DNA of 12,306 bases, taken from the NCBI GenBank assembly GCA_008534395.1, contig SHMQ01000048.1, positions 1 to 12,306 on the forward strand, read 5' to 3'. A program made the position numbers and the translations under genes. This DNA is from Candidatus Acidulodesulfobacterium acidiphilum. GTDB taxonomy: Bacteria; SZUA-79; Acidulodesulfobacterales; Acidulodesulfobacteraceae. Below the pieces are notes generated by a model that saw nothing but the letters and a program-made list of their open reading frames with translations, was not told the DNA's origin and did no database searches. This document shows, in pieces, positions 10,142-12,011 of the stretch (position 1 is the first letter of the stretch; each line of letters begins with the position of its first letter).

Positions 10142-11023
10142 TTACTGCGGATTTGCTACGGTTACGGAAACCCCGCCCGATTGCGAATACGAATACGAAG
10201 GTTCGTTAGGCGCCTGCGTAGTTATCGTAATATTAATGTTACAGTTATATACTCCTCTGGTTGAAGAGTTCTTATTGCAAGTAGTACCAGGACCGCCAGG
10301 AGCAGGAGGACCGCCAGGACCAGGGGCCGGTGGCGGTCCAGGAGGCAAAGGAGCACCGCCAGGACCTTTCGGTTTTGGTCTTGCAGGTTGGGGATTAGGT
10401 TGAACTCCGAAAATATTATTTAAAATTCCGCCCCAAAAATAATTCCAATCATTTAAAAAATTTAAATTTAGCGACAGGTTGGAATTAATATTGGAAAGCA
10501 AAAGATACAATTCGACGTCGGTTAATTTTGATAATAATTTATTTAACTCCTTTTTGCTCAATGATTTCAACAGCGTATAAAGTTGGCTACTCGTTAATGT
10601 GTTCAACAGATAATATAACTGATTCGAATTTAACGGGTGCAGTAGATTATAAAATTGTTTCGGGGATAACGACGACAAAATTCCGTTAAGCTGACTGGAA
10701 TTTAGCGGGATTAGAACTCCATACAGGTCTGCCGGACTCAAGATAGATAAAACCGAATTTAGTTGTTGTCCGCTTAAAAGTGAAAGAACGCTGTTTGTCT
10801 GGCTGGGACTCAATGGATATAAAAGGCTGTAAAGGTTTTTATTAGATAAACAGCTTAATGCATTATAAACCTGCGTTCCGGTCGTCATGCTCAACAATTG
10901 GCTTTGCGTCGGCGCAGAGCAGGTTCCGGCATATACGGGTTTTACAAAACCGATATTTACGTAAATTGCGCTAAAAAATAATACTGCTAATATTATCAGC
11001 AACTGGATATGACGTCGGTACAT
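10142..11023 (-). CDS. Unrecognised secreted protein with eleven 12-residue repeats and Pro/Gly-rich linker
   Basis: I do not recognise this 293-residue protein. It begins with a signal peptide (basic MYRRH, hydrophobic 7-21, likely cleavage VYA|GT after residue 32), so it is probably exported. Residues 48-179 are eleven 12-residue repeats in perfect register. Examples are SPADLYGVLIPL, NSSQLNGILSSL, SPKQFYNLLHPL and TSSQLYTLLKSL. The consensus is [S/T/N]-x-x-[Q/E/D]-L-[Y/N]-x-[L/V]-L-x-x-L. The first and fourth positions look like helix capping boxes, suggesting a solenoid of short helices (inference). Residues about 209-246 are a Pro/Gly-rich linker. The last 47 residues have two cysteines (C249, C261) and beta-like Ser/Thr/Val-rich sequence; C35 and C58 flank the N-terminal side. 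The start has a near-perfect AAGGAGGTGA nine bases before the ATG. Its first 53 bases overlap the prepilin gene in another frame. Confidence 0.8.
   Translation of the reverse strand: MYRRHIQLLIILAVLFFSAIYVNIGFVKPVYAGTCSAPTQSQLLSMTTGTQVYNALSCLSNKNLYSLLYPLSPSQTNSVLSLLSGQQLNSVLSILSPADLYGVLIPLNSSQLNGILSSLSPKQFYNLLHPLNSNQLYYLLNTLTSSQLYTLLKSLSKKELNKLLSKLTDVELYLLLSNINSNLSLNLNFLNDWNYFWGGILNNIFGVQPNPQPARPKPKGPGGAPLPPGPPPAPGPGGPPAPGGPGTTCNKNSSTRGVYNCNINITITTQAPNEPSYSYSQSGGVSVTVANPQ
10487..10882 (-). repeat. Protein-level tandem repeat array, 11 units of 36 bases
   Basis: These codons encode residues 48-179 of the secreted protein as eleven consecutive 12-residue units without insertions or deletions. 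The units are diverged at DNA level and conserved mainly at hydrophobic and capping positions, so the array is old and selected and not a recent slippage product. The next twelve residues (180-191) look like a degenerate final unit. Confidence 0.75.
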
Positions 11024-11495
11024 CGGAGTTCACCTCCTTATAAAGAATATTATTTACGACGCAATAAACTATTAGTTCATAATTTCCCGTTTTTTGATTT
11101 AACTGAAAAAAAGATATTTCGTTTCCAATTCCCTGCTTATTGCAACCAGCCCCCGTATTAAAACTGCTAAAAACACATATTGGATTAGTTTGTGAAGGCT
11201 CATCTGTTGGTTTATTAAATGGACATACGCCTGATACGGAAAATGTTTGAGGCGGCGTCGGCGGCATAGCCGCATTCTCCAAATTTCTCCTTATCGTCGC
11301 CATTGCTTGCGTCATCGAATTGTTTGAATGGAGATACTGTTCATTGGTCATATAGTCGTTTATCCCCCACATAACTACTTGATACAGCCCTATGGACAAG
11401 ATGCCGATAAGCAGAATCGTCATCACTAATTCTATAAGAGTAAAACCGCCCCTATTTTTTTTAATACTATTCAAAGTCTTAATTATCATTTTCAT
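10971..11495 (-). CDS. Prepilin-type N-terminal methylation domain protein (type II/IV pseudopilin-like)
   Basis: This is a pilin- or pseudopilin-like subunit made as a prepilin and cut by a PilD-type peptidase. The leader ends at KKNRGG|FTLIELVMTILLIGIL: G17 precedes the cut, F18 becomes the first mature residue, and E22 is the conserved glutamate +5. The hydrophobic assembly helix covers about 18-42. The globular part has four cysteines (91, 107, 118, 145), and its end resembles GspJ/PilW-type minor pilins (NNILYKEVN...YPVADNISSIIF). At 174 residues it is short for that group, and it stops just after the ADNISSIIF motif, where relatives usually continue, so the C-terminus may be truncated. 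No ribosome binding site is clear; ATG at 11489 is an alternative start. Its last 53 bases overlap the secreted-protein gene. No other pilus gene is in the window. Confidence 0.8.
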   Translation of the reverse strand: MKMIIKTLNSIKKNRGGFTLIELVMTILLIGILSIGLYQVVMWGINDYMTNEQYLHSNNSMTQAMATIRRNLENAAMPPTPPQTFSVSGVCPFNKPTDEPSQTNPICVFSSFNTGAGCNKQGIGNEISFFQLNQKTGNYELIVYCVVNNILYKEVNSDVPTSYPVADNISSIIF

Positions 11496-11514
11496 AAAAA
11501 TTTAAGAATATACC

Positions 11515-11567
11515 TTGTCATTCCTGCGAAAGCCCTGTCGTCATTCCTGCTTTCGCAGGAATGACAA
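11515..11567. repeat. Palindromic repeat with nested alternative hairpins
   Basis: TTGTCATTCCTGCGAAAGC (11515-11533) is the exact inverse of GCTTTCGCAGGAATGACAA (11549-11567), a perfect 19-base inverted repeat. Inside it, GTCATTCCTGC (11540-11550), the loop TTTC and GCAGGAATGAC (11555-11565) form a complete 11-base hairpin. The unit is therefore one full palindrome plus an inverted half copy, and the two structures exclude each other. The ATTCCTGCGAAAGCAGGAAT core resembles the dispersed palindromes of many genomes (dRS3/REP-like). No T-run follows in either direction, so I do not call a terminator. It lies between the prepilin start and the HEPN stub. Confidence 0.75.
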
Positions 11568-11589
11568 AAACGAATTATATTTTACACAT

Positions 11590-11670
11590 TTATTTTAATT
11601 TTATATCTTTTAAGTTATCCCTCGATTTTTCTAATTGATATTTTGCGTATTCAATTAATTCTTTTTTCAT
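11590..11670 (-). pseudogene. Truncated HEPN-domain (HepT-like) gene, N-terminal stub
   Basis: Directly after the nucleotidyltransferase, with a 4-base ATGA overlap, an ATG opens a 26-residue frame: MKKELIEYAKYQLEKSRDNL followed by KDIKLK and a stop. This matches the first helix of HEPN antitoxin/toxin partners of MNT nucleotidyltransferases, which are normally about 110-140 residues. The catalytic R-x4-6-H motif and the rest of the helical bundle are missing. The next sequence is a short AT-rich stretch and then the palindromic repeat at 11515-11567, so deletion or element insertion probably removed the 3' part. The assignment rests on a short stretch plus the operon context. Confidence 0.65.
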
Positions 11671-12011
11671 ATAAACATGCCTTCTCTGAGAATATTTTCT
11701 TTCAAAAAAGGATTGCCTTTATAATCGTTATTCCAATCGTTTATATTTTTTATTAAAGGTCCAAATAACAGGCCGTATTTTAATTCTATATCATATATAT
11801 CGCCTATAATTTTTTCTTCTAATTTAGAATTTACTTCGGTATTAAGAAGTATGAGTATATCGATATCGGAATCTTCGGTATAATCTCCTCTTGCTTTAGA
11901 GCCGAATAATATTATTTCCGCGTCTGGATATATGCCGAGTATGGTTTTCTTTAGTTCTTCTACGGCTTTTATTTCGTTATCCTTAAGTTTTAAGTCTTTT
12001 ATAGATTTCAT
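11667..12011 (-). CDS. MNT-type minimal nucleotidyltransferase (MntA-like)
   Basis: This is a 114-residue nucleotidyltransferase of the MNT superfamily. In MntA/HepT modules such proteins add nucleotides (AMP) to the HEPN partner and neutralise its RNase activity. The catalytic signature is ILFGSKARGDYTEDSDIDILI, with G37-S38 and the metal-binding D49 and D51. The length fits the minimal form. The ribosome binding site AAAAGGAAAT immediately precedes the ATG. The stop overlaps the ATG of a HEPN stub by four bases, the normal coupling for this module. Because the partner is truncated, this is probably an orphan remnant, unless it acts on another HEPN protein elsewhere. It is in the same orientation as the upstream start-less frame, nine bases away. 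Confidence 0.85.
   Translation of the reverse strand: MKSIKDLKLKDNEIKAVEELKKTILGIYPDAEIILFGSKARGDYTEDSDIDILILLNTEVNSKLEEKIIGDIYDIELKYGLLFGPLIKNINDWNNDYKGNPFLKENILREGMFI

Follow-up and report, generated by a model that had tools for sequence, protein, structure and literature searches.

The window, a 12,306-nucleotide stretch of Candidatus Acidulodesulfobacterium acidiphilum DNA that constitutes a complete contig from a 2.09-Mb genome, harbors a gene for a secreted repeat protein overlapping the 3' end of a gene for a GspJ/PilW-like (J-type) prepilin (Table 1). The prepilin motif of the latter scores 29.7 bits with PF07963 (cut-off 21.2). In complete relatives the operon order is I-type prepilin, J-type prepilin, the gene corresponding to the repeat protein (termed carrier in the following) and a K/PilX-like protein that has no Glu5. 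The g2 genomes G016, G025, G027, G028 and G029 have the carrier gene between the I and J genes. An MNT-type nucleotidyltransferase gene (11667–12011, −) lies between the two prepilin genes of the window, followed by a short remnant of its HEPN partner (11590–11670, −), and the same slot in G005 and at both G010 loci holds intact HEPN reading frames that continue, in the same frame, into the J prepilin. A palindromic repeated element, GTCATTCCTGCGAAAGCAGGAATGAC, at approximately 11505–11570 (−) takes the place where the remaining HEPN gene would be, and may be a REP-like insertion by which that gene was disrupted.

Table 1 Features of the window, with the evidence on which each assignment is based
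Feature	Position	Strand	Basis
Whole gene, secreted solenoid and pilin-hairpin protein, 293 aa	10142..11023	(-)	ORF; long form in 6 genomes; dN/dS well <1
Signal peptide, residues 1-32, type I site ...KPVYA/G (cleavage at the slash), without lipobox	10928..11023	(-)	sequence
N-terminal cap, residues 33-47, contains C35	10883..10927	(-)	alignment
Array, eleven 12-residue units, residues 48-179, predicted MgtE_N-type helical solenoid	10487..10882	(-)	HMM, model, structure matches
Helical tail rich in Asn/Trp, residues 180-206, low confidence	10406..10486	(-)	AlphaFold model
Linker rich in Pro/Gly, residues ~207-247	10283..10405	(-)	sequence; pLDDT mostly <50
C-terminal module, residues 248-293, two-Cys beta-hairpin	10145..10282	(-)	homology to G008/G020 prepilin tails; predicted strands
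Shine-Dalgarno AAGGAGGTGA of solenoid gene, within prepilin Lys-Glu-Val codons	11030..11039	(-)	sequence
GspJ/PilW-like (J-type) prepilin, 174 aa, stops just before terminal hairpin, end ...ADNISSIIF	10971..11495	(-)	N_methyl above cut-off; alignment; fold of unsplit homologue
Overlap of prepilin 3' end and signal-peptide coding sequence, 53 bp, out of frame (+1)	10971..11023	(-)	sequence
I-type (PilV/GspI-like) prepilin 3' end, cut by contig end	12021..12306	(-)	ends like complete homologues (...YVTLSTVYADY)

Conservation and selection support the repeat-protein reading frame as a real gene. Simple Nei-Gojobori counts yield a dS of 0.27 and a dN of 0.036 for cap and array of the window gene compared with G005, and a dN of 0.056 and a dS of 0.37 for the C-terminal hairpin module, which on these counts is under purifying selection. 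The gene is preceded by a strong Shine-Dalgarno sequence (AAGGAGGTGA) upstream of its ATG. An earlier note on this DNA had described a signal peptide, a Pro/Gly linker, a C-terminal module with two cysteines and, at residues 48–179, eleven 12-residue units in strict period without indels, all of which were recovered. Two further cysteines, C35 in the cap and C58 in the first array unit, are invariant in the alignment of the long, array-bearing forms.

The array is strongly periodic: column 1 is Ser/Thr/Asn and column 4 Gln/Glu/Asn/Asp in 11/11 units, column 9 is Leu throughout, and column 12 is Leu in ten units and Ile in one. Residue identity at lag 12 reaches 0.40, compared with a highest value of 0.26 among 20,000 shuffles, and the motif score, with residue classes picked from the array itself, is 66/66 (shuffles: mean 28, maximum 38). 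Calling the repeats “exact”, as had been done, holds for the 12-residue period and not for the sequence. Identity between units averages only 38% and no tandem repeat was found in the DNA of the array; it is therefore an old repeat. In g2, the array proteins (L025 12715–13821, L026 2726–3835) are interrupted behind unit two by a long Pro-rich insertion, which means that the unbroken 12-residue period seen in the window does not hold for the family; irregular spacers occur in the G003 array as well.

Searched against Pfam, the array scores 28.8 bits with MgtE_N (PF03448), above the gathering cut-off of 25.9, and homologous arrays reach 46.2, 36.9 and, below the cut-off, 22.8 bits; all but one of the four scanned long forms thus pass. 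The match is absent from six control arrays, three residue shuffles and three column-permuted versions that retain composition and the 12-residue period. AlphaFold, run without an alignment, models one short helix per unit, with pLDDT >90 over most of the array. Foldseek places MgtE cytosolic N domains as best matches to this model (top 2oux_B, E 4.9e-4), and in VIA-align a designed fibre protein comes first (Z 9.3), followed by the MgtE structure 8gpv (Z 8.8, 122 aligned, 4.0 Å). Z values of this size are common for helical repeats and not decisive by themselves, so that the MgtE_N sequence match carries the main weight. An NCBIfam search returned no confident family for the solenoid. A phmmer search of the full protein against the PDB listed estrogen receptor, Nup107 and MgtE 8gpv (E 1.8), too weak to use. 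We conclude that the array is an MgtE_N-type helical solenoid, with a predicted fold. The compact, exported helical solenoid proposed in the earlier note is thereby supported. Its “no named family” fails, given the MgtE_N score and the structural likeness to MgtE N domains; a described repeat family is the very kind of match that the note had itself set against novelty.

The protein is no MgtE transporter, scoring 12.3 bits with TIGR00400 (cut-off 232.75) and having no CBS or transmembrane domains; in their place are the signal peptide, the linker and the pilin hairpin described below. MgtE_N proteins (the cytosolic N domain of MgtE, FliG, FlgY) form an ARM-like, right-handed superhelix of short helices; the array model is likewise a solenoid of short helices, presumably of the same hand, but the array protein has no CBS or membrane domain and no coiled coil, and differs in its very regular 12-residue run, its fusion to a pilin hairpin and its place in a minor-pilin operon. 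An MgtE_N domain on an exported protein has already been described in FlgY of the flagellar E-ring (PMC11870540, PMC13023049), a trait that FlgY shares with the array protein. Other MgtE_N matches in the phylum have sizes that fit FliG and MotE/FlgY-like proteins, which they presumably are.

The C-terminal module was compared within the phylum-level group of the window (30 genomes, one family). At 18/18 loci with a truncated J (17 genomes), a separate hairpin reading frame is present in the same operon, compared with 0/2 genomes with an unsplit J (G008, G020), a perfect complementarity of arrangements. The unsplit prepilins comprise 221 and 216 aa in G008 and G020, respectively, and end in ...MYYYYINM..S.LPSGYSEN..GGASVI(I/V)ANPQ, the split modules having the consensus ...VY.CNINIT.T...YSQSGGVSVTVANPQ. 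A hidden Markov model built from the 18 split modules places the G008 (E 5e-4) and G020 (E 1.4e-3) prepilins at the head of the non-members among 1606 reading frames, the next non-member following at E 1.1. Both matches fall at the prepilin C-termini, with the last strand as the aligned part, and reverse phmmer searches with the two unsplit tails recovered the split modules (best E 1.5e-5). This homology spans about 16–34 residues, and much of its support is positional. MAFFT misplaced isolated hairpins against whole prepilins, and the hairpin model and reciprocal phmmer were used instead. A break between stick and head was also sought; the split lies before the last beta-hairpin instead. J is hence encoded in two pieces, the second bearing a signal peptide as judged by sequence pattern. 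An assembly or frameshift error is ruled out as the source of the split, because the same split occurs at 18 loci of 17 genomes, some with rearranged gene order. By homology, the C-terminal module is the split-off terminal beta-hairpin of the adjacent J-type pseudopilin. The earlier reading of a “small two-cysteine domain” was correct as to the two-cysteine module, which is, however, not a new domain. The unsplit tails have neither of the two cysteines, which means that the module was altered after the split; all split modules have gained them, and they may tie the hairpin together.

AlphaFold with 20 homologues models the unsplit J of G020 as a long helix with a beta-sheet, at a mean pLDDT of just 60; its last strands (183–192, 206–212) correspond to the hairpin module. 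The first eight VIA-align rows for this pLDDT-60 model are structures containing GspJ (XcpW, EpsJ, GspJ; Z 6.6–7.9), and unrelated rows start at Z 5.9, Z <8 being the range given for common arrangements. The GspJ alignments of the same low-confidence model cover residues 73–216, hairpin included, and reach or almost reach its last residue. NCBIfam gspJ (TIGR01711) is the matching subtype for the homologues of the window J, but they score 15.6–18.0 bits against an equivalog cut-off of 64.85, and we therefore name the protein GspJ/PilW-like only. The likeness to GspJ/PilW-type minor pseudopilins consists of the prepilin motif and the operon order I, J, K-like; unlike GspJ, the J of the window has no last two strands.

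In most loci the slot is occupied by a protein of 80–103 residues composed of a signal sequence, a Gly/Pro linker and the same module without an array. A lipobox (LSGC, LVGC, LAGC) is present in 11/12 of these short carriers, the remaining one (G023) having SVYC; in the array-bearing forms (G000, G003, G005, G025, G027, G029) it occurs in 0/6 and a type I-like site in 6/6. The sequence ahead of the hairpin has turned over completely, and the hairpin core GG.SV.VANPQ is maintained in g1 and g5 and can still be recognised in g2. In a GlnD tree, rooted on G020 by assumption, array-bearing forms are scattered, with at least seven changes among unsplit, short and long states. Cap and array are 93% identical between G000 and G005, and the closely related G010 and G012 carry the short form. 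Either an exchange of cargo or its repeated loss may explain this distribution. For J, dN is 0.30 across the whole protein, reflecting a fast head, and 0.011 in the first 60 codons. The metagenome-assembled genome G010 (59% complete) contains two operon versions (L027, L030), both with short carriers and probably from mixed strains. When one genome per species, across 84,980 species, was scanned with two peptide patterns, by which distant forms may be missed, solely members of the repeat-protein family were returned, and no homologous locus outside the phylum-level group was found in the confident range.

At 11 loci the carrier starts inside the J gene, where the +1 frame across the conserved end of J (TTSYPIANNISGISF) encodes the carrier signal peptide RHRIRLLIILPALVFS. 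The same frame of the unsplit genes already contains a hydrophobic stretch, ALTILAILLFLL in G020 and ALTMLALILLF in G008. An apparent vestige of the overprinted signal peptide persists in G005 and several g2 genes, whose carriers have their own start. In G023 (L073 6225–7114), the 3' part of J seems partly duplicated, giving rise to a separate carrier reading frame that has lost its lipobox. Most overlapping loci place a Shine-Dalgarno sequence within the J codons for Glu/Lys-Glu-Val, and unsplit and relocated loci have Gln at this position and no such motif, a pattern that is correlated with lineage and therefore no more than suggestive.

With respect to the apparatus, the genome encodes a secretin, PilB/PilT-type ATPases and a PilY1-like protein. 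A second minor-pilin set is found in G000 at another locus, together with a 1280-aa PilY1-like protein (L080 4462–10802). No second PilY1 was detected in the operon of the repeat protein, the single match lying elsewhere (G000:C1) beside its own minor pilins; this operon would therefore represent an additional tip set without PilY1. Minor pilins of the H/I/J/K types assemble into a tip complex (PMC9934059). The link to a prepilin-like neighbor suggested earlier is closer than had been proposed, through hairpin homology and overlapping genes.

Taken together, we favor, with a probability of roughly 60%, a split minor pilin that receives its last strands in trans and whose solenoid is exchangeable cargo shown with the tip complex. 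J would obtain its N-terminal helix and the bulk of its beta-sheet from the prepilin gene, and its final hairpin from the repeat-protein gene, at the C-terminal end of a protein that is exported through Sec on its own. Once outside, the hairpin would most likely, by analogy with the published systems compared below, complete the open sheet of the truncated J by strand complementation; whatever precedes it would then join the filament-tip complex. This cargo would be just a lipid-anchored linker in most relatives and an eleven-unit MgtE_N-type solenoid here. Pairing in trans, display at the tip and a binding role are what we infer here, the solenoid on its Pro/Gly arm being probably a binding or a spacer module. 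As to origin, the chances appear even that a frameshift in the J gene made a signal peptide from out-of-frame pilin sequence and thereby an exported plug, which then gained interchangeable cargo (lipid anchor or solenoid) displayed by the truncated pilin at the tip via strand complementation.

Other readings of the locus explain parts of these data. The carrier might by now be independent, a secreted or lipid-anchored protein with an inherited hairpin that has ceased to pair with J, and the truncated J would then function by itself. Membrane anchors have arisen in most carriers, and the two cysteines found in all of them and absent from unsplit forms could make the module a self-stabilised mini-domain. 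Yet each truncated J keeps a carrier and the unsplit J has none, relocated genes remain in the operon, and the hairpin core persists despite the turnover of the preceding sequence, which renders such independence unlikely. Far less credible is a stand-alone solenoid of a new repeat family tied to the prepilin by neighborhood alone, as the earlier note had it: the confinement of long forms to the phylum-level group (6/30 genomes, the wide scan having returned solely members of this family) would fit, but the MgtE_N cut-off is passed by three of four scanned long forms and by 0/6 controls, MgtE N domains are the top structural matches, and the hairpin is homologous to the prepilin.

Programmed +1 frameshifting at TTT-TAG, where the prepilin frame ends, would instead yield a single protein, a J pilin whose loop ahead of the last hairpin accommodates the solenoid. 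The second reading frame does lie in the +1 frame, and a T run precedes the stop in overlapping loci (TTTTTTAGC in the window, TTTTTAG elsewhere). Such a mechanism is nevertheless impossible in the five g2 genomes whose carrier gene lies upstream of the J gene, and likewise in G005 and G023, in which the carrier starts separately downstream of the prepilin stop. The solenoid gene of the window moreover has its own strong ribosome-binding motif and ATG, and lipoboxes and signal-peptidase sites would be senseless inside a pilin. Frameshifting thus appears quite improbable, if slightly less so than the stand-alone solenoid.

For the favored split pilin with strands supplied in trans, partial precedents exist in Geobacter and Streptococcus sanguinis. 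The Geobacter major pilin consists of two proteins, a PilA-N stick and a PilA-C head (PMC10191384, PMC8844916), and thus resembles J and its carrier in that one pilin is encoded as two separate proteins. The Geobacter break separates helix stick from head in a major pilin, whereas here a minor pilin is interrupted ahead of its last hairpin and its second piece, unlike PilA-C, bears extra cargo or a lipid anchor. The S. sanguinis tip pilins PilB and PilC carry grafted adhesive modules, and PilA stabilises the incomplete PilC head, for which modelling suggested strand complementation (PMC9934059). Common to both systems would be a module on a tip pilin and an incomplete head completed by a partner. 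In S. sanguinis, however, module and pilin belong to a single chain, whose partner is a complete pilin, whereas here the module would ride on the pilin's own missing strands; a graft of the S. sanguinis kind is not present, the module being on a separate reading frame that has just the hairpin of the pilin.

If this reading is true, the type IV filament has a naturally evolved split-protein docking system, in which related species swap the cargo on the supplied strands (a lipid anchor or a solenoid, short or long). Split pilins would then reach beyond the major pilin of Geobacter to a tip pilin with cargo, and a route would be suggested by which tip proteins diversify with the pilin core untouched. 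The group would also make the birth of a signal peptide by overprinting traceable, its members displaying the unsplit, overlapping, vestigial and relocated states side by side.
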